NCBI GenBank assembly: GCA_029262235.1
Contig: JAJCZU010000004.1
Coordinates: 1,241,231-1,305,230 of the forward strand
Direction of reading: 5' to 3'
Source: Candidatus Eiseniibacteriota bacterium
Lineage (GTDB): Bacteria > Orphanbacterota > Orphanbacteria > Orphanbacterales > Orphanbacteraceae
Length of the DNA: 64,000 nt
Of the stretch, positions 8,532 through 62,358 are shown in pieces (the first letter of the stretch is position 1; every line of letters starts with the position of its first letter). The position numbers and the translations under genes are program-made. The notes beneath the pieces are model-generated. The model was not told the origin of the DNA. It searched no databases and saw nothing but the letters and a program-made list of their open reading frames with translations.

Positions 8532-10412
8532 ATGCGTTTATCGACAATAAAAAGTCTTCTGTGCACGAGTGTGGGGGCCGCCCTGTTTCTGATCTCTCCA
8601 ACGAGCCTGATGGGCTCACCTCTCCTTCTATCGCGGCTGGCAGGTGCGGCTCCCTACACCAGTGCACAGAATGATGTCGAACGATATGGTGGTTCCGTGC
8701 GGCACCGCTTTCCGCCGGACCACCTGATCGTCGACGTCGACGACGCGCATGTAAATGATCTCGCCCGCAGCCTGGGCGATGGCTGGGTCATCGCGGATGG
8801 CCCGGTCAGCAATCCGTCCGGCGCGGCAGAGAACGCGTGGAACCGGATGTTCGAGCGGGAGGCGGCGCTTTCGAAAGTGCACAAGACGGGCACGCCGCTG
8901 AATCAGTGCGTTCATATGATGCCGCCGACGATCGAAGCTCCGGCGCAGGCGAAGGCGTCCTCCGGTGCGACGTACGGCGCGTACGGCGCCGGCTTCTGGG
9001 ACGGAAGCGAATACATGCTCGGCGATGTGGCCGTAGCCGTCATTCTGCCCGAGTCGAACGGCACGACCGACCCGAACCAGGAAGACTGGACGCCGGCGGA
9101 AGAAACGCACGTTACGAATCAGGTCGTCGAGGCGATGGACTGGTGGATCGACCAGACGCACCTCGGCCCGCTTACCTTTACGTATGAATATCATTATGAT
9201 GTGGACACGGACTACGAGCCGATCACGCATCCGCAGAGCGAAGAGAACATCTGGATCGAAGATGCGCTGAAGACTCTCGGATACGACGGGCCGGATCGCT
9301 TCACGATGGCGCAGCTGTTCGTGAACGATCTGAAGGACGCGTACGATACGGACTGGGCGTTTCTGATCTTCGTCGCGGACTCGGAAGTCGATGACGACGG
9401 ACTGTTCGCGAGCGGGCACTTTGCCTACGCGTATCTCGGCGGTCCGTTCATGGTGCTTACGCTCGACAACAACGGGTGGGGGCAGGCGAATTTCTCGGCC
9501 GTCTGTGCGCATGAAACGGGCCACATCTTCTACGCGCTCGACGAGTACTACAATGCCGGATCCGCATGCACCGACGAGTCGGGCTATCTGCTTTATCAGA
9601 ACCAGAACAGCCAGTACGGGTCGTGCGCCGAAGATGTGCCGACCTCGATCATGCGGAGCGTGCCGCTTTCTGTCGCGACGGTCAGTTCGTCGGCGCGCGG
9701 CATGATCGGCTGGGCGGATGCGGACGGCGATTCGGTTCCGGACGTGTTCGACACGAGCCCGACCGTGCAGATCACGTACGCGGCGAAGACGTCGGCCACC
9801 GCGAATTTCCGCGTGGAGGGAACGGCACACGTTTCTCCGATCGCGAACCTCAACACGCGCGGCTACGGAAACGATATCAGCGCCAACGAGATTCAGGCCG
9901 TGCAGTTTCGCGTGGACGGAGGCGCATGGGTGAATGCCGTTCCGGATGACGGCGTGTGGGACAGCGGTTCGGAAGGCTTCTCGTTCGAACCGACCGCGCC
10001 GTCGGAAGGGCAGCACGACCTGGAGGTGCGCGGGCTGAACAACCGCAACATCCAGAGCGCCGCCTACTACGAAGACAGCTTCGACTTCCTGGGCGTCACG
10101 AGCGTTACGCTGAGCGGCGGGGACGGCGTTCCGGTCGCCCTTCGCCTGCTCGGAAACCGCCCGAACCCGTTCAATCCGAAAACGTCGATCGCGCTCCGTG
10201 TCGACGGCGCTCTCCCCGCCTCCGTTGTGGTGTACGACGCGGCGGGTCGTCTCGTGCGCACGCTCTTTGCCGGCATCCTGCCCGAAGGGGACAATGTGAT
10301 CGTCTGGGACGGGGTCGACGACCGCGGGCGCCCGTCCGCGAGCGGCCGCTATCATTACAGGGTGGATGCGGGCGGCGGTTCCGCCGTCGGCTCGATGCTT
10401 CTCGTCCGCTGA
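8532..10412 (+). CDS. Secreted M64-like zinc metalloprotease with FlgD-like sorting domain
   Basis: This is a 626-residue protein with an N-terminal signal peptide. HETGH at 327-331 is followed by LDEYY, placing an Asp six residues after the second His. HE-x-GH...LDEY resembles the IgA-peptidase (M64) family, which uses a metzincin-like HExxHxxxxxD zinc site. A beta-rich linker follows. The C-terminus (GNRPNPFNPKTS, then AAGRLVRTL...DDRGRPSASGRYHYR) is the FlgD-Ig-like module that many FCB-group secreted proteins carry for export or anchoring. It is preceded by a sigma54 promoter and is probably made under specific conditions. Its substrate is unknown. Confidence 0.82.
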   Translation: MRLSTIKSLLCTSVGAALFLISPTSLMGSPLLLSRLAGAAPYTSAQNDVERYGGSVRHRFPPDHLIVDVDDAHVNDLARSLGDGWVIADGPVSNPSGAAENAWNRMFEREAALSKVHKTGTPLNQCVHMMPPTIEAPAQAKASSGATYGAYGAGFWDGSEYMLGDVAVAVILPESNGTTDPNQEDWTPAEETHVTNQVVEAMDWWIDQTHLGPLTFTYEYHYDVDTDYEPITHPQSEENIWIEDALKTLGYDGPDRFTMAQLFVNDLKDAYDTDWAFLIFVADSEVDDDGLFASGHFAYAYLGGPFMVLTLDNNGWGQANFSAVCAHETGHIFYALDEYYNAGSACTDESGYLLYQNQNSQYGSCAEDVPTSIMRSVPLSVATVSSSARGMIGWADADGDSVPDVFDTSPTVQITYAAKTSATANFRVEGTAHVSPIANLNTRGYGNDISANEIQAVQFRVDGGAWVNAVPDDGVWDSGSEGFSFEPTAPSEGQHDLEVRGLNNRNIQSAAYYEDSFDFLGVTSVTLSGGDGVPVALRLLGNRPNPFNPKTSIALRVDGALPASVVVYDAAGRLVRTLFAGILPEGDNVIVWDGVDDRGRPSASGRYHYRVDAGGGSAVGSMLLVR

Positions 10413-10501
10413 TCCGGCCTCTGAGACGTCATGAGCGCGCCGGCCTTCCGGCATGCGGTGAAACGCCTGCGGTTCCTCTATTACGCTCCAGGACAATTCA
10501 A

Positions 10502-10531
10502 TTGACACTTTTCGAGGCGGATTGCTACGCT
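10502..10531 (+). promoter_or_regulatory. Sigma70-type promoter
   Basis: TTGACA, an 18-base spacer, then TACGCT, upstream of the lipoprotein at 10596. The same TTGACA-N18-TAnnnT layout appears at 22625 and 42182. Confidence 0.55.
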
Positions 10532-10595
10532 TTCGGCTCGAACTCCGGGCGCTGTCCCGGCTCGTCCCCTCACTCCAGTAACTGGACAAGGTGTT

Positions 10596-11474
10596 ATGCG
10601 GATTGTACTTCCCGCCTTCGGGCTATTGTTACTCCTGTCGTCATGCAACCTGTTCGAAAAAGAAGAGACGTTCGTCGACGCGAGCGTGGCCGCGGCCGTG
10701 AACGGTACCGCGGTAAGCGAGACCAACACGTTTCGGCTTGCGGACTACGACATCCTCGCGGAGGGACAGGACCATCTGCTGCTCAAGGCGGGGAACGCGA
10801 TTCAGATCGTGGCCGCCACGGGGTATCAGGATTCCGTCGCCCGTTTCGGAAAGAAGCCGGACGCTCTTCTTGTAAAGAAGTGGACGAATCCGTATCCGCA
10901 TTTCCGCCTGCGCGGTTATGAGGTCGACGGGACGCGTCATGACGGTTCGTTCGTGATCGCCGCTTCGGAGCTTCCGATTCTGATGGATCGCAAGCTGTAC
11001 GACACGTCGTTCTTTCAGACGTACGAACTCGCCGCGTGGGAAGAAGAAATGCCCGACAAGCTGATGGGCAACATGATCGGTTTCGTCGGCTCGGTCGAGC
11101 GCGTCGTGATCGACTCGACGACGCTTGCGAAAGAGGCGGCTGCTGCCGAAAAGGCGGCGAAAGCAAAGCCGAAGGCGCCCGCAGCACCCGCAGCTGACGA
11201 GGCGCCGGCGCCGGGAACGGAAGCGCCCGCTCCGCCGAAAGAGACGGTCCGCTACTACATTAGTAGCGGCAACGTGCGCGTGCAGATCGAGAACACGACC
11301 GAACCCGGGGTCAGGCTTCTGCTCGACGGCATGATCTCCCAGGGGAAGAAGGGCGCGTTCTACGGTACGATCAATGAGGTTTCGCCCCCGAAGATCCGCA
11401 AGGACACGAAGATCTACGGCAAGTTTCAGCTCAGCGTGTTCGACTTCGCGAACAGGCTGTGCGTCCTGCGCTAA
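10596..11474 (+). CDS. Lipoprotein of unknown function
   Basis: The protein has 292 residues. The N-terminus ends in the lipobox LLSSC, with Cys at residue 17, so it should be lipid-anchored outside the inner membrane. Residues ~170-215 are an Ala/Pro/Lys-rich flexible linker between two compact regions. I do not recognise either region. ATG 10596 has AAGG upstream, and a TTGACA-N18-TACGCT promoter lies 65 bases before it. The gene is convergent with the PorV-like protein. Confidence 0.7.
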   Translation: MRIVLPAFGLLLLLSSCNLFEKEETFVDASVAAAVNGTAVSETNTFRLADYDILAEGQDHLLLKAGNAIQIVAATGYQDSVARFGKKPDALLVKKWTNPYPHFRLRGYEVDGTRHDGSFVIAASELPILMDRKLYDTSFFQTYELAAWEEEMPDKLMGNMIGFVGSVERVVIDSTTLAKEAAAAEKAAKAKPKAPAAPAADEAPAPGTEAPAPPKETVRYYISSGNVRVQIENTTEPGVRLLLDGMISQGKKGAFYGTINEVSPPKIRKDTKIYGKFQLSVFDFANRLCVLR

Positions 11475-11505
11475 AAAACCGCGTGGTCGTTTCGAGCGAG
11501 TCGGA

Positions 11506-12570
11506 TTATTGAGAGAGCCCGAGTCCGGGCACGTAATAGAGGCGGACCCCGAAGTGGTCCGCCGAATCGTTTGCGGTAGGAGAGGGAGAGCGGCCGTATT
11601 CGAACATGCCGCCGATGCCCCGGAAGATTTCGTGACCGATCCCGAACCCGAACGTGCCGCCTTCGCGACCGCCGAGCAGGATGTCGTCGTCTGACTGATA
11701 GCCGAACCTGATCGCCACCACACCGCTCACGCGAATCTCCGTCCCCACGGACCATCCCAGCCTGTCGACCGTTGTCGTGTTCTCGTCACCGCCGAGATCC
11801 ACCGTGCGGTCGCGCAGCAGATTGTAAATGTCGGCCGCCAGCGTGATCGTGTTGTTGCGATCCTTCTCGTAACGCGACGAGTACCCGAACCGTGCGTACA
11901 GAGGTAGATCCGCCTCGCGATTGCCGATCATGAACGACGGCCCCAGATTCGCGACGGAAACGCCGACGCGTGACGTCACGGGCAGATCGCCGAGCGTGTG
12001 GCCCTGCTTGAACAGCACGCCGAACGTGGCGGCGAAGGTCGCCTCCCCGTCGAGAGAATCGTGATCGGCGCTGTGCTGGTAGCTGATCCCCGTCACGCCC
12101 GCCGACCAGTTCGCCCCGATCTGCCTCGCGTACGAAAGCATCAACACCTTTTCGAGAATGTCGGTGCGGACCAGCGTGACTTCGTTTCCGTCAACGAACT
12201 GAAACTGACGGTCCCCTCCATCGCGCAGGATGACCGCGGCGCCCACCGTGTTGTTCTTCGAAAGCTTTGCGCTCGTCATGAACACGCGGTCGCGGCGCGA
12301 GTCCTGGAAGTCGTTCACTTCATCGTTCGGCGCTGCGTAAAACAGGTAACCCTTCGAGTAGGAGAGCCCCGCCGGATTGATCCAGACATTGGACGGTGTT
12401 CCGGGAATGGACCCCACGGCGTTCCCCATCCCCTGACCCATAGCGGTATACGACAGGAACGGATGAAGTGCGAGGTCGTTCTCTTCCGCGATCGCCCAGG
12501 CGGCGGGCGCAGCGACGAGAATTCCGAGTAGAAGAGATAAGATGGCAAACATCTTCCGGAACATACCCAT
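11506..12570 (-). CDS. PorV/UPF0164-type outer-membrane beta-barrel protein
   Basis: About 354 residues with a signal peptide (MGMFRKMF... to AWA). The mature N-terminus carries NVWINPAGLSY, the 'N-P-A-G' signature of FadL/PorV/UPF0164-type outer-membrane proteins. Alternating hydrophobic beta strands follow, ending GVRLYYVPGLGLSQ. Relatives in FCB bacteria are porin-like or serve type IX-type secretion; which applies here is unknown. The start is unsettled: TTG 12588, ATG 12570 and ATG 12564 all lack a good ribosome binding site. A TTGACA-N17-TATGTT box overlaps this very region and would favour an even later start. Confidence 0.75.
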   Translation of the reverse strand: MGMFRKMFAILSLLLGILVAAPAAWAIAEENDLALHPFLSYTAMGQGMGNAVGSIPGTPSNVWINPAGLSYSKGYLFYAAPNDEVNDFQDSRRDRVFMTSAKLSKNNTVGAAVILRDGGDRQFQFVDGNEVTLVRTDILEKVLMLSYARQIGANWSAGVTGISYQHSADHDSLDGEATFAATFGVLFKQGHTLGDLPVTSRVGVSVANLGPSFMIGNREADLPLYARFGYSSRYEKDRNNTITLAADIYNLLRDRTVDLGGDENTTTVDRLGWSVGTEIRVSGVVAIRFGYQSDDDILLGGREGGTFGFGIGHEIFRGIGGMFEYGRSPSPTANDSADHFGVRLYYVPGLGLSQ

Positions 12571-12637
12571 GGAAATGAAACGTGTCAACCAGAGGGGCAG
12601 TTGTCGATTCGCCCCGATTCTCGTACGATCGCACTAA

Positions 12638-13489
12638 ATGAAGTGTGAAAAATGGCATGCCCTGGCGAACGACTTCCTGATCGCCGACCGGAGAGACGAG
12701 CGCGAGCGGAACCCGGCGCGCTTCGCGGCGCCCCTCTGCGACCGCCATCGCGGCGCCGGGGGCGACGGTTTTCTCGCGATCGAGCCGTCGGGTGACCACA
12801 GCGACGCAATGGTTTCGATCTGGAACGCCGACGGGAGCCGGGCCGAGATCAGCGGGAACGGGCTGCGGTGCGCCGCCGGTTTCCTGCTGCAGCACGGGGC
12901 CGTGGACCGCTGTTCGATCCGAACACAGGCCGGAGTCTCCGCACACAGGGTGATCGAACGCGCGCCGCCCGGTTTTCGGATCGAATCGCACTTTCCCGCC
13001 CCCTCGTTCGCCTCCCGGGTGATCGGGCTCGCGGAAAGCGTGCCGGAAGGGGAGCCGTTCGAGCGCTCCTGGAGCGGCGGGGTCGTCCGCGGCACGGCCG
13101 TGTCGGTCGGGAACCCGCATTACGTCGTGTTCGAAGGATGGACCGAAGACAACTGGCGCGCGATCGGGGCCGAGCTCGAGAGCGATCCGTTCTTCCTGCA
13201 TCGCGTGAACGTCGAATTCGCCCGCGTGATCGATCGCGCCGCGCTGCAGGTCTTCGTGTTCGAACGCGGCGTCGGGGAGACGGCGTCTTCGGGCACGGGC
13301 GCGTCGGCGTCGTTCGCGGCCGCGCGTCGCGCCGGCATGGTCGACCCTGCAATCGACGTGCGCCTCGCCGGCGGCACGTTATCTTTACGGGAAGAGCCCG
13401 AGGGCTTCTCGCTCACCGGATCGTGCGAACGAATCGGCGTTTTCGAAACCGACCCCTCATGGTGGGAGCGCATCAATGACTCCGAGTAA
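12638..13489 (+). CDS. dapF: Diaminopimelate epimerase-like protein, second catalytic Cys replaced by Ser
   Basis: This is a 283-residue member of the DapF fold, which interconverts LL- and meso-diaminopimelate for lysine and peptidoglycan. The first catalytic cysteine is present in SGNGLRC (C78), as are NDF near residue 11 and GNPHYVVF. The second site reads ERGVGETASSGTGA, where the family normally has ET-x-ACGTGA. The base cysteine is therefore Ser218, encoded by TCG at 13289. The N-terminal HALANDF also departs from the usual H-G-x-GNDF. It may be a slow or altered epimerase, or a natural Cys/Ser variant. Its stop overlaps the start of the FG-GAP gene by 14 bases. Confidence 0.8.
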   Translation: MKCEKWHALANDFLIADRRDERERNPARFAAPLCDRHRGAGGDGFLAIEPSGDHSDAMVSIWNADGSRAEISGNGLRCAAGFLLQHGAVDRCSIRTQAGVSAHRVIERAPPGFRIESHFPAPSFASRVIGLAESVPEGEPFERSWSGGVVRGTAVSVGNPHYVVFEGWTEDNWRAIGAELESDPFFLHRVNVEFARVIDRAALQVFVFERGVGETASSGTGASASFAAARRAGMVDPAIDVRLAGGTLSLREEPEGFSLTGSCERIGVFETDPSWWERINDSE

Positions 13490-15110
13490 ACGTCACCCTC
13501 ATCTGTTTCCCGCCCTATTCGCGGGCGTGCTTCTGGCGGGCTCCTTCCTGCCAGGCTTCTTCCTGGCAGGCATGGTGTTTCCGTGCGCGGCCGCGGCGCA
13601 AAACGATTCGCTCACGCCGGAACCGGCCGAGCGCCCTTCGATGAACGTGCGGCGTCATCACGACGTGCGCTTTCTCGGCGCGGATCCGTGGGACGAACTC
13701 GGCGTGCAGGCGTGCTTCGCGGATCTGAACGGCGACGGCTTCGACGAAGTGATTCTGGGCGCATGGCTCGCAGACGGCCCGCGCAACGAGCGTTCGCGGG
13801 CGGGCGAAGTGTACATCTTCTTCGGGCGCGCTCTCGAAGACTGGGAGCGGGGGACGCTCGACCCGTCCGTCATCTATGGAGGGCGCGCCGGGGACCGCAT
13901 CGGATCGTCGCTCGACTCGGGCGACTTCAACGGCGACGGCATCCCGGACCTGCTGATCGGCGCGCGCTACGCCAACGGCCCGAGCGACTCGCTTCGCGCC
14001 CGATGCGGCGAAGCGTTTCTCGTGCTCGGCGGCTCGGCCGGGGAGCGTCACGAAGTCGTGGACCTGCGCGAGAAACCGGACATTCACATTATCGGGCTGG
14101 ACGAGGGCGATCGCTTCGGGCGCAGAATCCACGTGCAGGATCTCGATCGCGACGGGCGGGAGGACCTGCTGATGGCGGCGATCGGATCGGACGGCCGGTA
14201 CGACGAAGACGCGGACGCCGGCGCCGTTTACGTTCTCTACGGAAGGCCGCGTGATGATTTCGAGAAGGTGATCGATCTCGGCGATCGCGAACTTCCCGTG
14301 CTGCACGGGTCGGACGAGTCGGACGGACTCGGCGGCGCGATGGCGACCGGCGACTGGGACGGCGACGGCCAGATCGACATCGTTCTCGGGTGCGGGTTCG
14401 CGGACGGTCCGGCGAACGGGCGAACGAATGCCGGCGAGGCCTATGTGCTGTTCGGTACGGGGAAACGTTTCGAGGGGGAGACGGTGCTTACCGAAGGCGG
14501 CGTGTTCACGATTTACGGCGCGGACTCCTACGACGGCGCGGGCATCGCGGTTGCGTGCGCCGACTTCGACGGTGACGGTGTCGACGACATCGCGCTCGGC
14601 GCGAACCTCGCCGACGGCCCGAAGAACCATCGAGACAAGTGCGGCGAGGCGTACGTGTTACTCGGAAGCCCTTCGGTCAAGAGCGACAGGATCTTCGATC
14701 TCACGTACGCTCCGGATCTCACGATCTACGGTGCCCGCGAGGGCGATCAGTTCGGCGCCATCTTGAATCTGCAGGACTGGAACGACGACGGGTTCAGCGA
14801 TCTTCTCGTGGCCTCCCTGCTCAGCGACGGTCCGGGCGCGCAGCGGGAGGACGCCGGCATGCTCTACGTGATCCTCGGCGCGGCGCAGACGGACCTCGAA
14901 CCGCGCGTCGATCTGGCTACGGGCTCCGGCGACCTGTTCCTGCTCGGCCCTTCGGCGCAGGACAAGATTGCGACGGCTTTCACGATGGGCCGCATGGCGA
15001 ATGAAGACGTGCTCTTCGCCGCCACGATGCTCGGGGACGGGCCGCACGATGAAAAGAACGATACCGGCGAGGTGTATGTCCTTCGATGGCGCGCTCTGAC
15101 AGGACAATAG
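13476..15110 (+). CDS. Secreted FG-GAP / integrin-alpha-like beta-propeller protein
   Basis: The protein has 544 residues and a signal peptide ending near AAAAQ. The body is a run of ~65-residue repeats. Each has a calcium-loop core: DLNGDGFDE, DFNGDGIPD, DLDRDGRED, DWDGDGQID, DFDGDGVDD, DWNDDGFSD and a degenerate seventh. After each loop come a G-A/ADGP segment and GE-A/V-Y-VLxG. This gives a seven-bladed propeller like the integrin alpha head. Such proteins usually mediate adhesion or binding at the cell surface. There is no C-terminal sorting module. It overlaps dapF (14 bases) and recG (25 bases), so the three are likely cotranscribed despite unrelated roles. Confidence 0.85.
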   Translation: MTPSKRHPHLFPALFAGVLLAGSFLPGFFLAGMVFPCAAAAQNDSLTPEPAERPSMNVRRHHDVRFLGADPWDELGVQACFADLNGDGFDEVILGAWLADGPRNERSRAGEVYIFFGRALEDWERGTLDPSVIYGGRAGDRIGSSLDSGDFNGDGIPDLLIGARYANGPSDSLRARCGEAFLVLGGSAGERHEVVDLREKPDIHIIGLDEGDRFGRRIHVQDLDRDGREDLLMAAIGSDGRYDEDADAGAVYVLYGRPRDDFEKVIDLGDRELPVLHGSDESDGLGGAMATGDWDGDGQIDIVLGCGFADGPANGRTNAGEAYVLFGTGKRFEGETVLTEGGVFTIYGADSYDGAGIAVACADFDGDGVDDIALGANLADGPKNHRDKCGEAYVLLGSPSVKSDRIFDLTYAPDLTIYGAREGDQFGAILNLQDWNDDGFSDLLVASLLSDGPGAQREDAGMLYVILGAAQTDLEPRVDLATGSGDLFLLGPSAQDKIATAFTMGRMANEDVLFAATMLGDGPHDEKNDTGEVYVLRWRALTGQ

Positions 15111-17113
15111 AACCGGCGGCCGACGACCCGGTCGACGTACTCCCCGGAATCGGGCCCTCCCGCGCCGCGGATCTCGTGGCGCTCGGAATCGCGAACGTGG
15201 GCGATTTCCTGCACTACTTTCCCGCGGACTATCTTTCGCCGGCACGCCGCATTCGCGTGGCGGATGCCGTGGCGGAAGAGCCCGCCGTGTTCGCGGGCGA
15301 GCTCACTTCGATCCGCCTGATCCGTCGCGGGTGGGGGCGTTCGATCGTCGAGGGCGTTCTCGACGACGGGACGGGCACGATCCGCATGAGCTGGTTTCGC
15401 GCCGGGTACCTCGCGAAGAGCCTGAAGCCCGGCATGAAACTCGTGATCAAGGGAAAGCCGACTGGCAAGCCTCTCCGCATGCAGCATCCCGCGTTCGAAA
15501 CGCTCGTTCCCGCTGAGGGCGAATCCGATTTCGAACGCATTCTTCCCCGCTACCGCAGTCTCGGCGGGCTCCCGCAGAAAACGATTCGCAAGGCCATGGC
15601 GGTCGCGCTTCACGCCATTCCCGAAACGGAGCCGCTCTCCGACCGCATTCGCCACGCGCTCGATCTTCCCGGCCGCGCGGATGCTTATCACTTCGTGCAT
15701 CGTCCCGAATCCGAAGACGAGATCATTCGGGCGCGCCGGCGCTTTCTGTTCGAGGAACTCTTTCGTACGCAGTGCCGTTTCGCCGAAACGCATCGCGCGC
15801 GCATGGCGTCACGTTCGAAGAAGCGCGTGTTCGAGAAGACGGCCGTCGTCGAACAGCTCATCGCGTCGCTCCCGTTTACGCTCACGCGGGATCAGGCGCG
15901 GGTGCTCGAGCAGATTCAGAAGGATCTGCGTTCCGGGTGCCCGATGGAGCGTCTCGTGCTCGGCGATGTCGGTTCGGGAAAGACGATCGTGGCCGCCGCG
16001 GCCATTGCGCAGGTGGCGAAGCAGGGAGGGCAGGCGGCGCTTCTCGTGCCGACCGAAATCCTCGCCCGGCAGCATGCGCGTTCGCTCGCGGAGCTGTTCG
16101 AGCCGCTCGGGCTTCCCGTGCGACTGCTCGTGAGCGACCTTCCCGCGCCCGAGAAACGCGAAGCGCTCGCGGGTCTCGCGGACGGCTCGATCGGGATCGT
16201 GGTCGGGACGCACGCTCTGATTCAAAGCGCGGTGAAGTTCGACTCGCTCGCGCTTTGTGTGATTGACGAACAGCATCGTTTCGGCGTGCGCCAGCGCGCG
16301 TCGCTCACGGCGAAGGGGAAGAACGTGCATTTCCTGCTTCTTTCCGCCACGCCGATTCCGCGCACGCTTGCGCTCACGCTGCACGGCGATCTCGACCTCT
16401 CCGTGATTCGCACCATGCCGCCCGGGCGCATTCCGGTCGCTACGAAGCACGTCGCGGGCGAAGCGCGCAAGAAGGCTTATCATCATATGCGCGACCGCCT
16501 GCGCGAAGGGGAACAGGCGTTCATTCTGTTTCCGCTCGTCGAAGAGTCGGAGAAGGCGGACTGGAAGGCCGCGGTCGAAGCGGAGAAGAAACTCGCGAAG
16601 ACGTTCCTGCGCGAGTTCTCACTCGGCCTCCTGCACGGAAGGCTTCCGTCGCGCGAAAGGGAGGAGACGCTGCAGCGATTCCGGACGGGCGAACTGCACG
16701 CGCTGATCTGTACGACCGTGGTCGAGGTCGGCGTCGATCTTCCGCGTGCCACCGTGATGATTATCGAAGACGCCGATCGCTTCGGCCTCTCCCAGCTGCA
16801 TCAGATCCGCGGCCGCGTGGGGCGGAGCAGGCTGGCGAGCTACTGCTACCTTTCGACCCACGGGTCCGTCGGAGGGACCGCGCGGGAACGCCTGGGCGTG
16901 CTGGAGCGGGAAAACGACGGCTTCGCGATCGCCGAGGCCGATCTGGCCATTCGCGGGCCCGGCGACCTGCTCGGACTCGACCAGAGCGGCCACGGGCCCC
17001 TTCGCCTCGCGCTTCAGGAGTTTGACCCGCAACTGGTCGAATGGGCCCGCAAAGAGGCGTGGGAGAGCTCTCAGGCCCCCTCAGACGGAGCACGCCCGCT
17101 GCGCGCCGGATGA
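15086..17113 (+). CDS. recG: ATP-dependent DNA helicase RecG
   Basis: This 675-residue protein has the full RecG architecture. An N-terminal helix-hairpin region (VLPGIGPSRAADL) and wedge/OB domain bind the branched DNA. The helicase motor follows, with Walker A GDVGSGKT, motif II DEQH (followed by RFGV), motif III LLSATPIPRTLA and motif VI HQIRGRVGRS. The TRG-type C-terminal segment is also present. RecG remodels stalled forks and R-loops. The start ATG lies inside the FG-GAP gene, overlapping by 25 bases. Length is normal for the family. Confidence 0.95.
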   Translation: MARSDRTIEPAADDPVDVLPGIGPSRAADLVALGIANVGDFLHYFPADYLSPARRIRVADAVAEEPAVFAGELTSIRLIRRGWGRSIVEGVLDDGTGTIRMSWFRAGYLAKSLKPGMKLVIKGKPTGKPLRMQHPAFETLVPAEGESDFERILPRYRSLGGLPQKTIRKAMAVALHAIPETEPLSDRIRHALDLPGRADAYHFVHRPESEDEIIRARRRFLFEELFRTQCRFAETHRARMASRSKKRVFEKTAVVEQLIASLPFTLTRDQARVLEQIQKDLRSGCPMERLVLGDVGSGKTIVAAAAIAQVAKQGGQAALLVPTEILARQHARSLAELFEPLGLPVRLLVSDLPAPEKREALAGLADGSIGIVVGTHALIQSAVKFDSLALCVIDEQHRFGVRQRASLTAKGKNVHFLLLSATPIPRTLALTLHGDLDLSVIRTMPPGRIPVATKHVAGEARKKAYHHMRDRLREGEQAFILFPLVEESEKADWKAAVEAEKKLAKTFLREFSLGLLHGRLPSREREETLQRFRTGELHALICTTVVEVGVDLPRATVMIIEDADRFGLSQLHQIRGRVGRSRLASYCYLSTHGSVGGTARERLGVLERENDGFAIAEADLAIRGPGDLLGLDQSGHGPLRLALQEFDPQLVEWARKEAWESSQAPSDGARPLRAG

Positions 17114-53935: not shown

Positions 53936-54520
53936 CTACGGCGTGTGCGGCGCGGCCAGGTACGGGAACGTGCCGGAGAACGCCTTGTCGTTTGCGGTGG
54001 GGTTCACGGGTACGCCTGCCAGCGTGGCTGCCGTGTGCGGACCGGCGCTGTTCCCGAGATCGATATCAAGCAGCACGAGCGCCAGCGTCACGTCGATGAC
54101 CGGGTCCGTAAGGCCGCGGCCGTTCGGGAAGCCGGCGGGTGCCGCCGTGTTGATCATGAGCACGTCGGGAACCACAAACGGCGCGGCCTGCGCCACCGCT
54201 TCCGCCGGCGTCGCCGGTGTGAGGCCGAGCCCGGCCAGGTCGTCGTCGAGCGCGTTATGCAGCCCGGTGACGTTCGCCGTGATCTCGCCGACCCAGTTGC
54301 CCGCGACATCCCCGGCCGGCGTGTCGCTGTTGTACATGTCCTTGCTCGTGATGACCGCGGTCGCGATCGCGGGCATCCCCATGCGGTCGACTTTCGTGAA
54401 GGTTTCCATCGTCGGCTGCATGCCGTTGTTGTTGTCATTGTTGTCGTCCCCGCAACCCGCGGCGACGAGCATGCATCCGGCCAGGGCCGCAAGCAGCGTG
54501 TTTCTCGTCAAGCGTTTCAT
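53936..54520 (-). CDS. DUF4331-related lipoprotein (C-terminal-half type)
   Basis: 194 residues with a lipobox (MLVAAGC at residue ~23) and an Asp/Asn-rich run after the cysteine. The body (NGRGLTDPVIDVTLALVLL near the end, FTKVDRMGMPAIATAVI near the start) matches the C-terminal half of DUF4331 proteins. The gene just upstream encodes the N-terminal half with its own signal peptide. The two together equal one normal DUF4331 protein. Function of the family is unknown. The genes are 2 bases apart. Confidence 0.75.
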   Translation of the reverse strand: MKRLTRNTLLAALAGCMLVAAGCGDDNNDNNNGMQPTMETFTKVDRMGMPAIATAVITSKDMYNSDTPAGDVAGNWVGEITANVTGLHNALDDDLAGLGLTPATPAEAVAQAAPFVVPDVLMINTAAPAGFPNGRGLTDPVIDVTLALVLLDIDLGNSAGPHTAATLAGVPVNPTANDKAFSGTFPYLAAPHTP

Positions 54521-54522
54521 GG

Positions 54523-55167
54523 TCAGCTGTCCTTTCTCGAAGTCGTCGCCCAGATGTAGAGGTTCGATCCGCCGCCTGCCGCGCTCGAAAGGTCCATTTC
54601 GAGAACGATGGCCGTGCAGTTCAGGCCGGCGACCGAGTCGCGCGTCGAGTCGAACATGAGCGTGCCGGTCGCGAGCGTGTTGTTGAACCCTTCGAGGTCG
54701 AAGAAGAAGGGATCGTCGCGGAGGCCGGCGTAAAGCTGCACTCCCTGATCGCTGATGACGGTGCCGACGGCCCCTGTCACGTCGCCGGTAGTGCCGGGCA
54801 CGTTGCTCGCGGTCACGGTCCAGTTGCCGTTCACTTTCGCGAAACGGACACCGATCTTGACGTCCGCCTCGTACGTGGCCGGGAAGCCACCGCCGTCGCG
54901 CCCGATGCGTACTTCATAAAGCACGTCTTCGTCGTACGCGCCGTCCTGCCCTGCGACCGGCGCCCGGAGCCCCGCAAACGTGATCGCCGCAACGAGCCGC
55001 CCGGCATCGTGCCACGCGTAAACGTCCGCGATGTCCGCGGCAGGATCCGCCTGCGTCCCCGGCGCTTCCATGTGATCCGCGGCACGCGTGAGCCCCGGCA
55101 TTCCCGCGAGCAGCGCGAGCGTGACTGCTGTCAGAAGCTTCGTGCTTCTGCTTCGATTCTGTTTCAT
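54523..55167 (-). CDS. DUF4331 family exported protein (N-terminal-half type)
   Basis: 214 residues with a signal peptide ending TRAA. It begins DHMEAPGTQADPAADIADVY, the hallmark of the DUF4331 N-terminus, and has DDPFFFDLEGFNN further on. It ends where the family's middle linker would be, and the following gene supplies the remaining half as a separate lipoprotein. The start is ATG 55167 with GAGGAGG upstream; the longer open frame has no such site. First gene of the 55167-52849 run. Confidence 0.82.
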   Translation of the reverse strand: MKQNRSRSTKLLTAVTLALLAGMPGLTRAADHMEAPGTQADPAADIADVYAWHDAGRLVAAITFAGLRAPVAGQDGAYDEDVLYEVRIGRDGGGFPATYEADVKIGVRFAKVNGNWTVTASNVPGTTGDVTGAVGTVISDQGVQLYAGLRDDPFFFDLEGFNNTLATGTLMFDSTRDSVAGLNCTAIVLEMDLSSAAGGGSNLYIWATTSRKDS

Positions 55168-55423
55168 TCCAAGCCTCCTCTGTTTTGCTGGATCGAATCG
55201 ACTGTTCACATGGATTACGCCGCGGCCCCCCGGGGTGGATGAGCCAATCGAGAACAATGTTGGTCGTTTCTTGCAGGATCTTGCGCGCCGTGACTCGAAA
55301 ACCGGGAGCGATCCACGATTTGAACCCAGACGCGGTTCGAGACCGCGTACAATTATGAAAGGAACACGAGCGGAAGCTGGACGGCGGTCGCTCCGCATTG
55401 CCTTTCACGCCGGCGGAACCAGG

Positions 55424-57580
55424 GTGTCTTTGCGAGAACAGTGGAAACTCTCATTCGCAGCCGTGCTGATCGCAGCGGCGGCTTCGCTGTGGGCGGGTTG
55501 TTCCGCGTCGGGCGGTCCCGATCGTGCCTCCCGACCGGCACCGCCGGCGTCCGAAGACAGCGCTTCCGTAACGCTGGACGGTACGGACTGGACCCTGGTG
55601 CGCGCGTGGGATTTCGCTCATGGACTCTTCCCCGGCGGGTGGGGATGGGGCACCTGGGAGATCCGCAACAAGACGCTGCAGGGCGAGAGCCGCGACGACG
55701 ATTTCTCCGTCTATTTCTTTCCTGTCGTGCACGGGGATGACGCTCTTCTCGAGACGAAAGTACGGTTCGAGAGCAGCGTTCCCGGGCACCGCGTGGAAGC
55801 GCAGCTGCTGACGCGGGACCAGGAATCCATTTGCCACGAAAGCGGACTCGTTCTCTTCGCCGATCGCGACAGCGTCGACGTGCGGCACATGGCCCACGCG
55901 CACGACTACGTCCGCGAAGGCGTTCCGCTGACGACCCGTGTGACGTACGGCGAGTGGCACGTCATGCGCTTCCTGATGCGCGGCGGAGAGATTCACGCGT
56001 ACATCGACGACGAGCACGTGTATTCGTCCGTCGCCTCGGCCGGCCGCGACGAAGCCGATCCTGAGCTCCGCGCGCTCGGCGGCGTCTTTCCTGTCGGCAT
56101 CTATGACGAGCCTCACCTCGCGGTCAAGTGGGGCACCGCTTCGTTCGAGTACGTGAAGTTGTATCTTGCCGGGGCCGAGGGGACGGCTGTCGCGTCGAAC
56201 ACAGGCGCGCGTCGCGAACACGCCCGCTCGCTCTCCACGTTCCGTGTCGACCGCAGGCACTGGGCGATCACGCTCATGCTGTACCTGTTCTATGCCGTCA
56301 TCTTCATCGTCTGCATCTATCTCGTCCGCCATTACGTTTTCACGGTGAATCGTCTGTTCGGGCGGCAGCGGCAGCCGTACATCGATATCGACACGGCCGA
56401 CTGGCCGCAGGTGACCATCGTGATCCCCGCGCATGACGAGGAAGTCGTGATCAGCGAGATTCTCGAGGCGCTGCTCGACGTCGATTATCCGCTGGATCGC
56501 ATGACGATCATGCCCGTCAACGACCGTTCGAAAGACAGGACGGGCGAGATCATCGACGAAATCGCCGCGCGGCATCCGAACACGATCGAGCCGTATCATC
56601 GCACGCGCGGCAGCGGGGGGAAGGCGGCCGCGCTCAAAGACGCCACCGCGCGCGTAAGGACCGAGATCATGCTCGTGTTCGACGCGGATTACATTCCGGG
56701 GCGCGGGCTCATCAAGCAGCTGGTGGCGCCGTTCTTCGATCCCGAAGTGGGCGCCGTGATGGGGCGCGTGGTCCCGTACAACGTCGACAGCAATCTGCTG
56801 ACGCGTCTGCTCGATCTCGAACGCGCCGGCGGATACCAGGTGGACCAGCAGGCGCGCATGAACATGAAGCTCGTGCCGCAGTACGGCGGAACCGTCGGCG
56901 GCGTCCGGCGCACCGCGCTCGAAAGCGTCGGCGGCTGGCAGACCGACTCGCTCGCGGAAGACACCGACGCGACGTACCGGCTCCTGCTTTCCGGATGGAA
57001 GACCGTGTATCAGAACCGGTCCGAGTGCTACGAGCAGGTGCCCGAGACATGGGCTTCGCGACTGCGCCAGATCACGCGATGGGCCAAAGGGCACAACCAG
57101 GTAACGAATCGTTATACGTGGGCGCTCATTCGCAATCGCCGCACGAGCCTTGTCGAAAAGATCGACGGCCTCCTGCTGCTCGGCGTGTACGTGATGTCGC
57201 CCGTGCTGCTGTTCGGCTGGACGCTCGGCATCATTCTCTGGTATCTGGGCGAACCGCGGTCGGGGCTGATCATTCTGCTTGCCGTTACCGCTTACAGCAC
57301 GCTCGGGAACTTCGCCGTGTTCTTCGAAATCACAGCGGCAACCTATCTCGACGGTACGCGTCTGCGGATCCGGCTCCTTCCGTTCGTGTTCCTGGGATTC
57401 CTCGTAAGCCTGCTTTCGATCACGCGCGCCACGTTCGTTGAAGTCACCATGAACGGGAACGGGAAGAACGGGGCGAAGCGCAAGGTCGTGTGGGACAAAA
57501 CCGAACGAAGCAACAGTTTCAACGGACACACGAACGGCCAGAACGGTTATCACTTTCATACCGCGCGGAACGAAGAATGA
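55424..57580 (+). CDS. Processive GT2 polysaccharide synthase fused to an extracytoplasmic lectin-like domain
   Basis: About 718 residues. After a signal/lipobox-like segment (ASLWAGCSAS) comes a ~210-residue beta-sandwich of LamG/DUF1080 style (FPGGWGWGTWEIRNKTLQGE ... DDEHVYSS). A membrane helix, a cytoplasmic GT2 domain and C-terminal membrane helices follow. The GT2 domain has DxD (VFDADY), EDTD and QITRW, the processive-synthase set of BcsA, chitin and PNAG synthases. I chose GTG 55424 because it places the signal peptide at the N-terminus; ATG 55355 gives a 23-residue extension and sits in a TACAAT box. The stop overlaps the next gene (ATGA). The 256-base spacer before it shows no other gene. 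Confidence 0.83.
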   Translation: MSLREQWKLSFAAVLIAAAASLWAGCSASGGPDRASRPAPPASEDSASVTLDGTDWTLVRAWDFAHGLFPGGWGWGTWEIRNKTLQGESRDDDFSVYFFPVVHGDDALLETKVRFESSVPGHRVEAQLLTRDQESICHESGLVLFADRDSVDVRHMAHAHDYVREGVPLTTRVTYGEWHVMRFLMRGGEIHAYIDDEHVYSSVASAGRDEADPELRALGGVFPVGIYDEPHLAVKWGTASFEYVKLYLAGAEGTAVASNTGARREHARSLSTFRVDRRHWAITLMLYLFYAVIFIVCIYLVRHYVFTVNRLFGRQRQPYIDIDTADWPQVTIVIPAHDEEVVISEILEALLDVDYPLDRMTIMPVNDRSKDRTGEIIDEIAARHPNTIEPYHRTRGSGGKAAALKDATARVRTEIMLVFDADYIPGRGLIKQLVAPFFDPEVGAVMGRVVPYNVDSNLLTRLLDLERAGGYQVDQQARMNMKLVPQYGGTVGGVRRTALESVGGWQTDSLAEDTDATYRLLLSGWKTVYQNRSECYEQVPETWASRLRQITRWAKGHNQVTNRYTWALIRNRRTSLVEKIDGLLLLGVYVMSPVLLFGWTLGIILWYLGEPRSGLIILLAVTAYSTLGNFAVFFEITAATYLDGTRLRIRLLPFVFLGFLVSLLSITRATFVEVTMNGNGKNGAKRKVVWDKTERSNSFNGHTNGQNGYHFHTARNEE

Positions 57581-58752
57581 GCTTCGCGATTGCCATTATC
57601 ATATTTTTCGGTTTCGTGCTCGGGCTTGCCGTGCTGCCGTTCGTTCCGGCTGTGGCCGAATGGCGTCAGAAGACTGATGCCGAGCCGCTCTCTGTTGCGT
57701 ACCGGTCCGAAGTCGACGTGCGCCACCTGGCGAAGGGGTTCAGGAAGTACGTGGCGGCTCATCTGGGCAAGCACCTCGAGCAATGTCGCGCGAGCGGTGC
57801 TGCGGAGCGGGGCACACTCGAAGACGGCACGCCGTTTCTCGTCGCGCCTGATCACGAACAGGACATTCTGCTGCCCGAGGAAATCCGGGATGGCGCCGCG
57901 CACCGACTGGTTCTGGCGTGCGGCGATCTGAAGCTCCCGGGTGAGACGATGTTCCTGCCTGAAGTGTTTGCCGAAGGTTCGATCGTCGGCGGGGAGAACA
58001 ACATCTATCGCGCCATGCTGGCGGGAAGCGATATCACACTCGGGCGCGGCAGCACGCTGCTTCGCTGGGTGCATGCGCGCGCCATACGCGTGCACGCGGA
58101 CGGCGTTCTGTTCGGGCGCGCTTCGGCCGACGAGTCGATCGTGCTCGAAGCCGGATGTCGTTTCCAGAGACTGCACGCGCCTCGCCTCGCGTTCGGCGAG
58201 ACACCAGGTACGTGCGACTCTGCCGGCGACGAACCGCGGGGCGTCTTCGACGGTCTCGAGCTGGCGCCGGACGACGTTCCGAACACGGTTGATGTGAAAG
58301 CGGGAAGATGGCTCGTGGACGGCGATCTGGAAATCCCGGCCGGAAAAACGGTGAAAGCCGATCTCGTGGTAACAGGGGGGATCGAAATACGCAAGGGCGC
58401 CCGTGTCGACGGGGCGATCAAGAGCCACAAGGACATTCGAATTGCGGAGGGCGCTGTGATCAACGGCAGCGTGATCAGCGGGCGCGATCTCGTTGTCGAA
58501 CGCAGGAGTCGCATCTACGGCCCCGTCCTCGCCGATCGCAGCATCGCGTGCGGGGAAGGCGTCGTTCTCGGCACGGCGGCGAAGCCGACCAGTGTGAGCG
58601 CGGAAGAGATCACGGTCGTGCGGGGCACGGTCGCGCACGGCACGGTATGGGCACACAGGAACGGCCGTGTTCTGGACTCCGCCGACACGCCCGACACCGT
58701 CCCGAACGGCTCGCGGGATCAGGGACGCCATCACAAACGGGCGGAAGCGTAG
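57577..58752 (+). CDS. Membrane-anchored bactofilin-like polymer-forming repeat protein
   Basis: 391 residues: an N-terminal membrane helix (IAIIIFFGFVLGLAVLPFV), a middle domain and a C-terminal stretch (about 265-370) of short beta-helix repeats such as GGIEIRKGARVDGAIKSHKD and GAVINGSVISGRDLVVE. These are the bactofilin/polymer-forming pattern, also seen in left-handed hexapeptide folds. It may form a scaffold around the GT2 synthase whose stop it overlaps. No acyltransferase motif is evident. Confidence 0.72.
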   Translation: MSFAIAIIIFFGFVLGLAVLPFVPAVAEWRQKTDAEPLSVAYRSEVDVRHLAKGFRKYVAAHLGKHLEQCRASGAAERGTLEDGTPFLVAPDHEQDILLPEEIRDGAAHRLVLACGDLKLPGETMFLPEVFAEGSIVGGENNIYRAMLAGSDITLGRGSTLLRWVHARAIRVHADGVLFGRASADESIVLEAGCRFQRLHAPRLAFGETPGTCDSAGDEPRGVFDGLELAPDDVPNTVDVKAGRWLVDGDLEIPAGKTVKADLVVTGGIEIRKGARVDGAIKSHKDIRIAEGAVINGSVISGRDLVVERRSRIYGPVLADRSIACGEGVVLGTAAKPTSVSAEEITVVRGTVAHGTVWAHRNGRVLDSADTPDTVPNGSRDQGRHHKRAEA

Positions 58753-58755
58753 ACG

Positions 58756-59634
58756 ATGCCGAACACGAACTTCTACAAGGTGTACCGCCACCCGGGCAGA
58801 ACCGATCCGAAGCTTCGCAAGTGGCTGGAGGATCTGAGCCGGCGCGGGTTCCGGGGCGGAACGATTCTGAACCATCGCGCCATGCTGACATCGCGTCACG
58901 GCCGGGCGAAGATTCTGTCGTCGTCCGCGCTCTCCATACTGCTTCTTTTCGGATGGCTGTCATCCGTCAGCGTGGTGAGCGGCGTATGGGCCCGCATGCT
59001 GTCGTTCTGGAACGAAGTCCTCGGAATCGGCGGGTACGTCACGCAGATCCACTATCAGATCGGCGGCTTTTACCATTTCCGCGCGCCGTACTTTCATGTC
59101 TCGTCGGCAACACCGGACGATCTGGTGATCATGATCGGCTGGGTGGTGACGGCGATTTTCTTCGTCGCGTCGTTTCTCATTCCGCGCATGCATCTGCCGC
59201 TGATTTATGTCGTGCGCGTCGTGCTGTTCTTTCAATTGTGCGCGCAGGTGTTCTTCACGTTCGTGCCGCTCCGGTTCCCGTACGGCGCGGCCGGGTATGT
59301 GCACGGGCTCTTGATCGCGGGTCTCGGCCTGATCGCGCTCGTTCCGATTCTGCTCGGATTCACGTACTTCATTTTCGACTTCAGTCTTCTGCGAAAAGTC
59401 GGCCTGGCGCTGCTCATCATCCTGTACATGGCGCTGTTCATACCGCTGCAGTTCGCGGCGCACGCGTTCATTCTGCATCATGCATCGCTGCTCGTACTGC
59501 CGCTTCTCTTCTTCGTATTCGGACTGCCGTTCAATGTGATGACGTTTATCGCGCTGTATTCATGGGGCGCGAGCTGGAAGAACGAACTGTACGAACGGGA
59601 TGTTCCGCGGAAGGTGAGGCGCCATGTACGCTAG
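58756..59634 (+). CDS. Polytopic membrane protein of the GT2 locus
   Basis: 292 residues: a basic ~50-residue cytoplasmic start, then about six membrane helices, one pair separated by a ~40-residue outside loop (YQIGGFYHFRAPYFHV). I do not recognise the family. Its position 3 bases after the bactofilin-like gene and overlapping the YaiO-like gene by 11 bases marks it as part of the same polysaccharide synthesis or export unit. Confidence 0.7.
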   Translation: MPNTNFYKVYRHPGRTDPKLRKWLEDLSRRGFRGGTILNHRAMLTSRHGRAKILSSSALSILLLFGWLSSVSVVSGVWARMLSFWNEVLGIGGYVTQIHYQIGGFYHFRAPYFHVSSATPDDLVIMIGWVVTAIFFVASFLIPRMHLPLIYVVRVVLFFQLCAQVFFTFVPLRFPYGAAGYVHGLLIAGLGLIALVPILLGFTYFIFDFSLLRKVGLALLIILYMALFIPLQFAAHAFILHHASLLVLPLLFFVFGLPFNVMTFIALYSWGASWKNELYERDVPRKVRRHVR

Positions 59635-60442
59635 AAACGGCAGGCGCGCTCTTCGTGCGACTCTCCGCGCGACTCTCCTGATGGCGGTCTTGTGCGGCGC
59701 GGCCGGACTCGGCTCGCGCGCGGCCGCGGATCCGCTCGTCTACTCGATCGAGGGGGGCGGTTCGTATACGCATTTCACGGAAGACTACGGCAGCGGCAAC
59801 ACGCAGTTCGCGGCATTCACACTGACGAGACCGTCCCGGTACGCGATCAGGATCGACGCGGGAAGGGCCGAACGGTTCGATGACGACGGTTACGGAATCG
59901 GCGCACTTCTCACAAAGTATCTCGCGCGTAACTGGAGCGCCGGCGTGGGAGCCGGCACGGGAACGGGGGACTTCATTCACCCTGAGTACCGCCTGGACGC
60001 TTTCGTAAGTAAAGGGCTTCTCGCGAACGGCAACCTGATTGCCACGCTCGGCTATGCGCACGAAGAGAGCAAGGCCGCGAACTACTACGACAGGGTTGCC
60101 GGCTCGCTGACCTGGTGGGCCGACGCGCACTGGATCTTCGGCGGGTTCTATCATTACGACATCGGATATCCGGGCGACACGCGAACGAAATCCGGCGGCG
60201 CGGGGATCACGTGGTACGACTGGCAGGAGCGTTCGCTCAGCGTGTCGGGTTCACTGGGCGACGTGAACTACACGCAGGTCGGCCCGACATCCTTCCTCGT
60301 CGGCTATGAAGAAGTGTCGGTATCCCTCGGCGTTACGGAGTACCTGAGCTCACGTGGGGGACTTCGGTTGAAGCTCGACTGGGGCAGCAACGACTTCTAC
60401 GATGCCTACGGAGTCACGGTCAGTCTGTTCAGGGAGAGGTAG
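59624..60442 (+). CDS. YaiO-like outer-membrane beta-barrel protein
   Basis: 272 residues with a signal peptide (ATLLMAVLCGAAGLGSRAAA). The mature protein is all strands with aromatic girdles (VYSIEGGGSYTHFTEDYGSG ... SVSLGVTEYLSSRGGLRLKL), ending in a hydrophobic strand with a C-terminal charged residue pair. The pattern fits YaiO-family barrels found in exopolysaccharide loci. It would be the outer-membrane exit or receptor of this locus. Confidence 0.75.
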   Translation: MYARNGRRALRATLRATLLMAVLCGAAGLGSRAAADPLVYSIEGGGSYTHFTEDYGSGNTQFAAFTLTRPSRYAIRIDAGRAERFDDDGYGIGALLTKYLARNWSAGVGAGTGTGDFIHPEYRLDAFVSKGLLANGNLIATLGYAHEESKAANYYDRVAGSLTWWADAHWIFGGFYHYDIGYPGDTRTKSGGAGITWYDWQERSLSVSGSLGDVNYTQVGPTSFLVGYEEVSVSLGVTEYLSSRGGLRLKLDWGSNDFYDAYGVTVSLFRER

Positions 60443-60447
60443 GCGCA

Positions 60448-62358
60448 TTGCTTCCGGACTCGTTACAGAATCACGATCATGAGAAGGGCGCCGATCACGC
60501 GCTCGCGGCGTTCGCGGGCGTTGTCGTCCTCCTCGCCCTTGTCCAGGTACTGACGATTTCCGTTTCGCTTGCGGGGCTCACTCTCGCCGGGCCCCTTGCC
60601 GTCGTGGTTCTCGTGGTCGCGCTCGGCGCGGCAGGCATGGTTGCATGGCGATACGCGCGTTCCGAAAGCGCGGCGGGAACAAGGCGTCCGGATCCCGCGC
60701 CCAGAAGCGATCGCAATGCGCTTACGATGCTGGGGACGCTGGCCGCCGCCGCCGCGGTCGCCTGGTTCGTCTGGGTCTGGGGGCAGCTGTGGCTTCTGGC
60801 CGGCGCGCGGCCGCCGTACGACTGGGACGGACTCTACTATCATCTGCCCGCCATTCACGAATGGGTCGCGAACGGGCGCATCGCGTTTATCGGCAACACC
60901 CCCGACATTCCGTTCGTCAACTTTCCGATGGGAGTGGAGCTGACCTCTTACTTCGTGCATCAATTGACGGGCACGAGCCGTTTCGTGAACGCGTGCAATC
61001 TCTGGTACTGGCCGCTCGCGTTTCTGTCGCTCGTCGTGATTGCGACGCGCCTCGGTGCCCGCGGCGCCTGGCGATGGGCGGCCGGTGCACTGCTCTTCGG
61101 CGCGCCGGTCTTCGTCTCCCAGAGCGTGACCTGCTACATCGATCCGGGGTTTGCGAGCGCGGTGATGGCCGCGATCGCGGCTTCGTGTGTGTTCGTGTTC
61201 GATCGGGACAGGGAACGTGCCCGGAACGCGCTGCTTCTCGGCGCCGCTGTGGGGCTCGTGCTGGGGAGCAAGGGCACAGGCGCGCCGTTTGCGGGCGTGA
61301 TTCTCGTCGCGGTCACGGCCGCGGCCCTGGCTCGAGGCGGCTTCGGGGGCGCGGGCAGAGTTCTCGCGTCCGCGGCGCTCACGCTCCTGGTCGCGTTTCT
61401 CGTCGGCGGATACTGGTATGCGCGCAACGCGTACCACACGGGGAACCCGATCCATCCGATTCAAATCGAATTCGGACAGAAAGTATTAATCGAGGGGTAT
61501 GATCCGGCGCTGTTTCTCTCGGCGAATCTCCCGACGTGGCTCGCGCCGTATCCCGCCTGGGCGCGGATGTTCGTGGCATGGTTTCAGCCCGACGCGCCCG
61601 TGTCGGGGTACGCGCCGGTCGGAGGCATGGGGTATATCTGGCTCGCGGCCGCGTTGCCGGCGCTCTTCTATCTGTTCGTTCTTGCTGCGCGCCGGCGTTA
61701 TCCCGGCCCTGCCCGCGAGTTTCTGTTCGTGTCATTTCTGGCGCTCATTCTGTTCGCCGTGCAGCCCGCGAGCTGGTGGTCGCGTCTCACGATCTGGTTT
61801 CTCGCGATCGGACTCCCGTGCATCGCCGTGGCGGCCTCGCACGCGGCTTCGACCTGGCGGGCGACTCCGCTGCGATCGATCGTGCTCGGCTGGGCGATCG
61901 GATCGATCGCGCTCGCGGTCTGGGAATCGAACGGGACGCTGCAGCTCGAGCGGGCGACCGGGCGGACGGTTGCGGACACGCGTTCGCAGGCCACGTACAT
62001 GTCGAGTCTCGACTACATACTTCCGGGAATGGCCGCGGCGCCCGGCTTCGAGGAATTCTTCCGCGCCCGCAGGATCGCGCGCAGCCCCTGGGAGCGGATC
62101 GGCACACTGCTCGGGGGCGTACTCGCCATGCCGCTCGACGCCAGAGAGATCACCGTACTGCCTCTCTATCCGGAGGAGGCCGACGTGGACGCGCTCGCGG
62201 ACGCCGGCGTCGAATGGATCATCTGGGACGTGCTCGGATCGGGAGAAGCGCCCGCTGTCATCACGAGCGCGGCCGATCGCCATCACGTCTTCCATCCCGC
62301 GCCGGACGTGAACTTCCACATATTCCGCCTCGAGAGCACCGCACGCGCCCGGCATTGA
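60448..62358 (+). CDS. Polytopic membrane glycosyltransferase, GT39-like
   Basis: 636 residues and about a dozen membrane helices. The first large loop has YDWDGLYYHLPAIHEWV, an Asp-rich motif in the place used by lipid-linked-sugar glycosyltransferases. It ends in a ~110-residue soluble domain (PGFEEFFRARR ... VEWIIWDVLG). It probably adds sugar from a polyprenyl donor to the polymer or a surface protein. The start is TTG 60448 with GGGAGAGG upstream. It follows the YaiO-like gene by 5 bases. Confidence 0.72.
   Translation: MLPDSLQNHDHEKGADHALAAFAGVVVLLALVQVLTISVSLAGLTLAGPLAVVVLVVALGAAGMVAWRYARSESAAGTRRPDPAPRSDRNALTMLGTLAAAAAVAWFVWVWGQLWLLAGARPPYDWDGLYYHLPAIHEWVANGRIAFIGNTPDIPFVNFPMGVELTSYFVHQLTGTSRFVNACNLWYWPLAFLSLVVIATRLGARGAWRWAAGALLFGAPVFVSQSVTCYIDPGFASAVMAAIAASCVFVFDRDRERARNALLLGAAVGLVLGSKGTGAPFAGVILVAVTAAALARGGFGGAGRVLASAALTLLVAFLVGGYWYARNAYHTGNPIHPIQIEFGQKVLIEGYDPALFLSANLPTWLAPYPAWARMFVAWFQPDAPVSGYAPVGGMGYIWLAAALPALFYLFVLAARRRYPGPAREFLFVSFLALILFAVQPASWWSRLTIWFLAIGLPCIAVAASHAASTWRATPLRSIVLGWAIGSIALAVWESNGTLQLERATGRTVADTRSQATYMSSLDYILPGMAAAPGFEEFFRARRIARSPWERIGTLLGGVLAMPLDAREITVLPLYPEEADVDALADAGVEWIIWDVLGSGEAPAVITSAADRHHVFHPAPDVNFHIFRLESTARARH

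Follow-up and report, generated by a model that had tools for sequence, protein, structure and literature searches.

Pga-type systems for the secretion of exopolysaccharides (EPS) have deacetylase and hydrolase genes. In Gluconacetobacter, the BcsHD cortical belt aligns the cellulose synthases and provides the best known analogue of the arrangement considered here (PMC7811197, PMC11470070). We analysed a stretch of 64,000 nucleotides (the window) from an assembly of a Candidatus Eiseniibacteriota bacterium (GCA_029262235.1, contig JAJCZU010000004.1), in which five genes on the + strand, at positions 55424-62358, encode a membrane-bound glycosyltransferase of family 2 (GT2), a bactofilin-like protein, a protein with six transmembrane segments (6-TM), an outer-membrane barrel of the YaiO family and a further protein with multiple transmembrane (TM) segments. 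We demonstrate that the GT2, bactofilin-like, 6-TM and YaiO genes form a discrete and widespread system, which falls outside both Bcs and Pga by the criteria tested and is likely to be a synthase-dependent EPS secretion system of an apparently undescribed class. No description of such an operon was found in the open-licence papers that we searched.

The conserved gene set and its hosts

Relatives were collected by searching named genomes for two short peptide patterns of the GT2; this single scan found the GT2 in 375 named genomes, of which the best 80 became loci. Since these loci were picked by the GT2 alone, with neighbouring genes playing no part in the choice, the neighbours form an independent test of whether the operon is a unit. 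A bactofilin-like gene lies directly downstream of the GT2 gene in every locus with at least 1.3 kb of sequence (75/75), and the two genes are separated by -4 nt, an ATGA overlap, in 47 of 76 loci. Of the loci with at least 6.5 kb, all have the 6-TM gene close by (62/62) and all but one the YaiO gene (61/62). The gene order that a preliminary description of the window had proposed to look for elsewhere is thus conserved, and of the partners named there the bactofilin-like, 6-TM and YaiO proteins form a near-universal core, whereas the fused lectin is confined to one clade. In addition, 42 of the 56 loci flanked on both sides carry a gene for a non-hydrolysing UDP-GlcNAc 2-epimerase. A protein of ~615 aa with weak similarity to polysaccharide deacetylases is present in 37 of the 53 loci outside the window's clade, where hydrolase-like proteins are also frequent. 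The frequency of epimerase, deacetylase-like and hydrolase-like genes suggests that the product is an N-acetylhexosamine polymer.

Profile searches for the GT2 and 6-TM families, carried out over the same 386 sampled genomes, also support a discrete family. The GT2 profile matched eight genomes with E values of 1e-151 or lower and nothing between there and the limit of 1e-60; family members reach E 1e-100 or better. The subfamily is marked by the signature stretches GGYQVDQQ and QYGGTVGG, to which the window synthase conforms, and the window operon fits the proposed family definition, a signature GT2 with adjoining bactofilin-like, 6-TM and YaiO genes. Seven genomes were positive for the 6-TM family, all of them within the eight GT2 genomes (P ~3e-14), and in the eighth the 3.4-kb contig with the GT2 gene breaks off within that gene; in this sample, the 6-TM family was found solely beside this GT2. 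The window's 6-TM protein also pointed to a distant genome whose consecutive genes are 6-TM, a GT2 of 49% identity, the bactofilin-like gene, two others and YaiO.

The hosts belong to at least six named phyla and include Acidobacteriota, Gemmatimonadota, Eiseniibacteriota, Krumholzibacteriota, Rhodothermota/Bacteroidota and alpha-, beta- and gammaproteobacteria, among them the cultured and tractable Cupriavidus, Duganella and Collimonas. No relative was found on viral contigs. The GT2 family was not found in six genomes of the window's own phylum, so the window's copy appears isolated and the operon patchy in that phylum. One distant, AT-rich genome has a divergently oriented gene for a GH12 glycoside hydrolase next to the operon (L018, 13984-14841). 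Escherichia carriers comprise an IncI1/B/O conjugative plasmid of E. fergusonii (L115, NZ_CP057682.1, 4581-11206) and E. coli chromosomes, where the GT2 occurs in 3 of 5,426 complete genomes and one locus was read fully (L117, AH19B041 chromosome, 8669-15580). The Escherichia gene set consists of a polymer-forming cytoskeletal protein, wecB, YaiO, 6-TM, an acyltransferase, another hypothetical protein and the GT2, with the 6-TM protein itself annotated as hypothetical and recognized as a family member (E 1.6e-19, plasmid copy). This form of the operon is compact, with the acyltransferase as an extra gene, and the bactofilin-like protein of the plasmid copy is short. The occurrence on both a conjugative plasmid and E. 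coli chromosomes argues that the system is mobile in Enterobacteriaceae.

The fused synthase and its beta-sandwich domain

The first gene (55424-57580, +) encodes the synthase of 718 aa; its GTG start at 55424 is our best guess, as the frame is open upstream to 55088. Residues 9-27, which contain a lipobox-like IAAAASLWAGC, form a signal or anchor segment, followed by a beta-sandwich (residues ~51-254, positions 55574-56185), a TM segment (282-300), the cytoplasmic GT2 domain (328-556; Pfam Glyco_tranf_2_3, 2.6e-32) and three more TM segments. The processive-GT2 motifs DADY, EDT and QITRW are intact, and no Pfam match to the PilZ domain for cyclic di-GMP was obtained on the synthase. Its nearest NCBIfam model is PgaC/IcaA, with 134 bits against a cut-off of 422, and the CelA model gave 82 bits against 699; as the protein falls far under every curated cut-off, we rejected its assignment to any named family of synthases (PgaC, CelA, NodC, HpnI and others). 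The label "BcsA-type" in the preliminary description was hence too specific, while its picture of a synthase-type polysaccharide machine lacking BcsB holds, in that no BcsB (PF03170) was found in the whole assembly with a search whose control matched in E. coli and B. subtilis.

The beta-sandwich and the GT2 domain share a single stop-free frame, and five further homologues are fused in the same way, which makes a sequencing frameshift an unlikely origin of the fusion; we rejected that explanation. The claim that the N-terminal domain is extracytoplasmic and joined to the GT2 by one helix also agrees with our data, which place a fold of carbohydrate-binding type in the periplasm, with one TM segment (282-300) between it and the GT2 domain. 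In its predicted structure (pLDDT 88) the domain comes nearest to the carbohydrate-binding module CBM66, with GH16 and galectin folds next. The best match was the CBM66 module of B. subtilis (4b1m; Foldseek E 1.2e-8, probability 1.00, TM-score 0.56/0.68, 19% identity). The fold is thus CBM66/GH16-like, and the label LamG, as first suggested, did not hold, as Pfam Laminin_G_2 gave 13 bits (E 0.15) against a cut-off of 22.9. The catalytic motif of GH16, E-x-D-x-E, is missing in all ten beta-sandwich domains that we found.

These ten domains occur in loci of one 14-member clade (support 100/98). They are fused to the synthase in six (the window, L024, L025, L026, L032 and L033) and form separate proteins, each with an N-terminal anchor and encoded immediately before the GT2 gene, in four (L028, L030, L039 and L091). 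That the domain accompanies the same synthase in fused as well as in separate form is good evidence that the two work together. The domain was not found in the remaining four loci of the clade, one of which (L027) ends upstream at a contig end, and most loci with the same core operon carry none. As the other parts of the operon persist in its absence, the domain is accessory and not a general substitute for BcsB; on the sequences compared, it is an add-on of one branch of the family. Deacetylase-like and hydrolase-like genes were not seen in this clade, in which a multi-TM gene resembling the window's last one is common.

Partner proteins and surroundings of the operon

As the preliminary description had noted, the genes overlap or nearly touch, with junctions of -4, +3, -11 and +5 nt, and the characters that it gave to the partners have largely stood. 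The second gene (57577-58752, +, 391 aa) encodes a membrane-anchored protein that passes the Pfam Bactofilin cut-off (31.9 against 27.9 bits). An N-terminal TM segment is typical of its family, and in 82 of 83 members positive charges lie C-terminal of this segment, which predicts that the beta-helix is in the cytoplasm, under the membrane and on the same side as the GT2 domain. One locus (L021, 8375-8794) has just a 139-aa bactofilin-like frame together with an aberrant GT2 C-terminus, possibly through frameshift or decay.

The third gene (58756-59634, +, 292 aa) encodes the 6-TM protein, described earlier as an unknown six-helix protein. The window protein gave no significant family match, and its family showed no shared Pfam match among 56 members and no PDB sequence match. 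A fold search found no PDB relative (best E 0.13, probability 0.11) in spite of a confident model (pLDDT 91). In two loci (L039, 11068-12756; L094, 12036-13850) the 6-TM protein and the YaiO barrel share one frame with an apparent internal signal peptide and AxA site, which may be a natural fusion of inner- and outer-membrane proteins that needs cleavage, or a pair of assembly errors. In two others (L097 and L099) the 6-TM frame extends into a long, repeat-like extracellular region.

The fourth gene (59624-60442, +) encodes a barrel of 272 aa with a signal peptide, whose likeness to YaiO was confirmed by TIGR04390 (67 against 32 bits) and PF19413 (40.7 against 23.9 bits). After YaiO comes the last gene (60448-62358, +, 636 aa), as it does at several other loci of the window's clade. 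Its multi-TM product resembles GT-C or GT39 enzymes by eye only, with no significant family match, so that the earlier GT39 label expresses a likeness and no more.

A scan for promoters found none, and terminator-like sites occur at chance frequency. Directly 3' of the operon, between 62450 and 63999, lies a gene for a sigma factor of the extracytoplasmic function type (Sigma70_r2 and r4 matches), overlapped by a frame that resembles an anti-sigma factor and runs past the window end. On the other side, an adjacent pair of genes on the minus strand (53936-55398), transcribed away from the operon, corresponds to two halves of Pfam DUF4331 (profile positions 157-238 and 249-421), and the second gene of the pair begins with its own lipoprotein-like signal sequence.

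A model for the system and its relation to known machines

In the model that we favour, the GT2 would polymerise an N-acetylhexosamine chain (GlcNAc/ManNAc) and, together with the 6-TM protein, extrude it across the inner membrane, while the bactofilin-like beta-helix under the membrane would arrange the synthases, much as the BcsHD belt does for cellulose. This scaffold role is inferred, as is the formation of filaments. The chain would then be modified in the periplasm and exit, or be anchored, at the YaiO barrel. The window's clade, where the deacetylase-like and hydrolase-like genes are missing, has instead a CBM66-like domain, fused or separate, and a multi-TM GT-C-like protein; the CBM66-like domain probably takes hold of the chain on its exit from the synthase. 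We are more tentative, at somewhat under an even chance, about the full proposal of a partly mobile class of EPS systems in at least six named phyla, with an obligatory dedicated bactofilin-type part, a 6-TM export partner of new fold and a polymer based on ManNAc/GlcNAc.

Several observations weigh against this model. The YaiO barrel has no periplasmic tetratricopeptide repeat (TPR) part as in BcsC and PgaA, which weakens the case for export. The best PDB sequence matches of the bactofilin-like family profile are acetyltransferases of the left-handed beta-helix (LbetaH) type (3mqg, 2.4e-5). The deacetylase assignment is weak, with one member only above the Pfam cut-off, and neither epimerase nor deacetylase-like genes are in the window's operon. 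In the window's genome, the deacetylase-like family had no match in a search run without a positive control; a WecB-type epimerase, ~50% identical to the operon copies, is encoded on another contig and could supply UDP-ManNAc.

The acetyltransferase matches favour a rival explanation that we consider improbable, namely that the beta-helix protein is an LbetaH enzyme, or a relative of one, which modifies the polymer or its precursor, and that the system is not coupled to a cytoskeleton but is a diverged equivalent of the yai operon of E. coli. Between GT2 and YaiO, E. coli indeed has an LbetaH acetyltransferase in the same place, which weakly matches the bactofilin-like profile (2e-5, 11 bits). 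However, this protein and YaiP lie far outside the families defined here and the yai locus has no annotated 6-TM gene, whereas the window protein exceeds the Pfam Bactofilin cut-off and the island copies of E. fergusonii and E. coli bear the NCBI annotation of polymer-forming cytoskeletal protein. A somewhat less probable alternative is that the operon makes an envelope-bound or spore- or cyst-like coat glycan, or decorates another surface glycan, with YaiO as an anchoring or modifying barrel. The missing TPR part of known exporters would fit such a role, as would the lack of deacetylase-like and hydrolase genes in the window's clade and the multi-TM GT-C-like gene, which suggests lipid-linked sugar donors; yet the processive-type GT2 motifs are intact and flanked by TM segments, and most members carry deacetylase-like and hydrolase-like genes, as Pga-type systems do. 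Least probable, and in our judgement very unlikely, is the original idea that the fused lectin takes over from BcsB in guiding the nascent polymer and so enables a machine without it: a periplasmic CBM66-like domain tied to the synthase by one TM segment in a genome lacking BcsB would suit it, but the majority of loci with this core, relatives from the window's clade among them, are without the domain, four relatives have it as a separate, anchored upstream protein, and a GT2 outside CelA gives no reason to expect BcsB.

If our favoured model is correct, the system would be a common, overlooked addition to the synthase-dependent EPS machines (Bcs, Pga, Pel and Alg), and bactofilin-like proteins would gain a direct role in polysaccharide secretion. 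With copies in cultured, tractable species, a cytoskeletal element as a required part of a synthase is directly testable, and the 6-TM family is a conserved group of membrane proteins for which a confident model exists but no structural relative is known.

Among known proteins, CBM66 of B. subtilis shares the fold of the window's beta-sandwich and is joined to a hydrolase, whereas the window domain belongs to, or adjoins, a polymer synthase. Bactofilins such as CcmA and BacA likewise have the Pfam Bactofilin domain above cut-off and associate with membranes; the window family differs in being encoded with a polysaccharide synthase, in its extra N-terminal part and in its fixed N-terminal TM anchor. 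The E. coli operon yaiS-yaiP-LbetaH acetyltransferase-yaiO also has a deacetylase, a GT2, a beta-helix protein and a YaiO barrel in a row. Its YaiP, however, reaches just 59 bits (E 4e-20) against our GT2 profile, the window synthase is not of the YaiP type, and the yai deacetylase is of another family (PIG-L). At two E. coli yai loci (L104 and L105) the arrangement is parallel and the synthase of a different subfamily; in K-12 MG1655, an IS2 element interrupts the gene for the beta-helix protein (yaiX). No paper on the function of the yai operon was found in the open-licence literature searched. Bcs with BcsHD or BcsPD likewise combines a membrane GT2 with a co-encoded cytoplasmic scaffold (PMC7811197, PMC11470070), whereas the window genome lacks BcsB, its GT2 is not CelA and has no PilZ match, and the scaffold is bactofilin-like rather than BcsD/H. 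Pga (PgaABCD) shares with the window operon the nearest named GT2 family (PgaC/IcaA) and an outer-membrane barrel, and with most of its relatives a deacetylase-like protein. In contrast to Pga, the new family has a GT2 that stays far below the PgaC/IcaA cut-off, a 6-TM protein in place of PgaD, a YaiO barrel without TPR, an epimerase inside the operon and a bactofilin-like gene.

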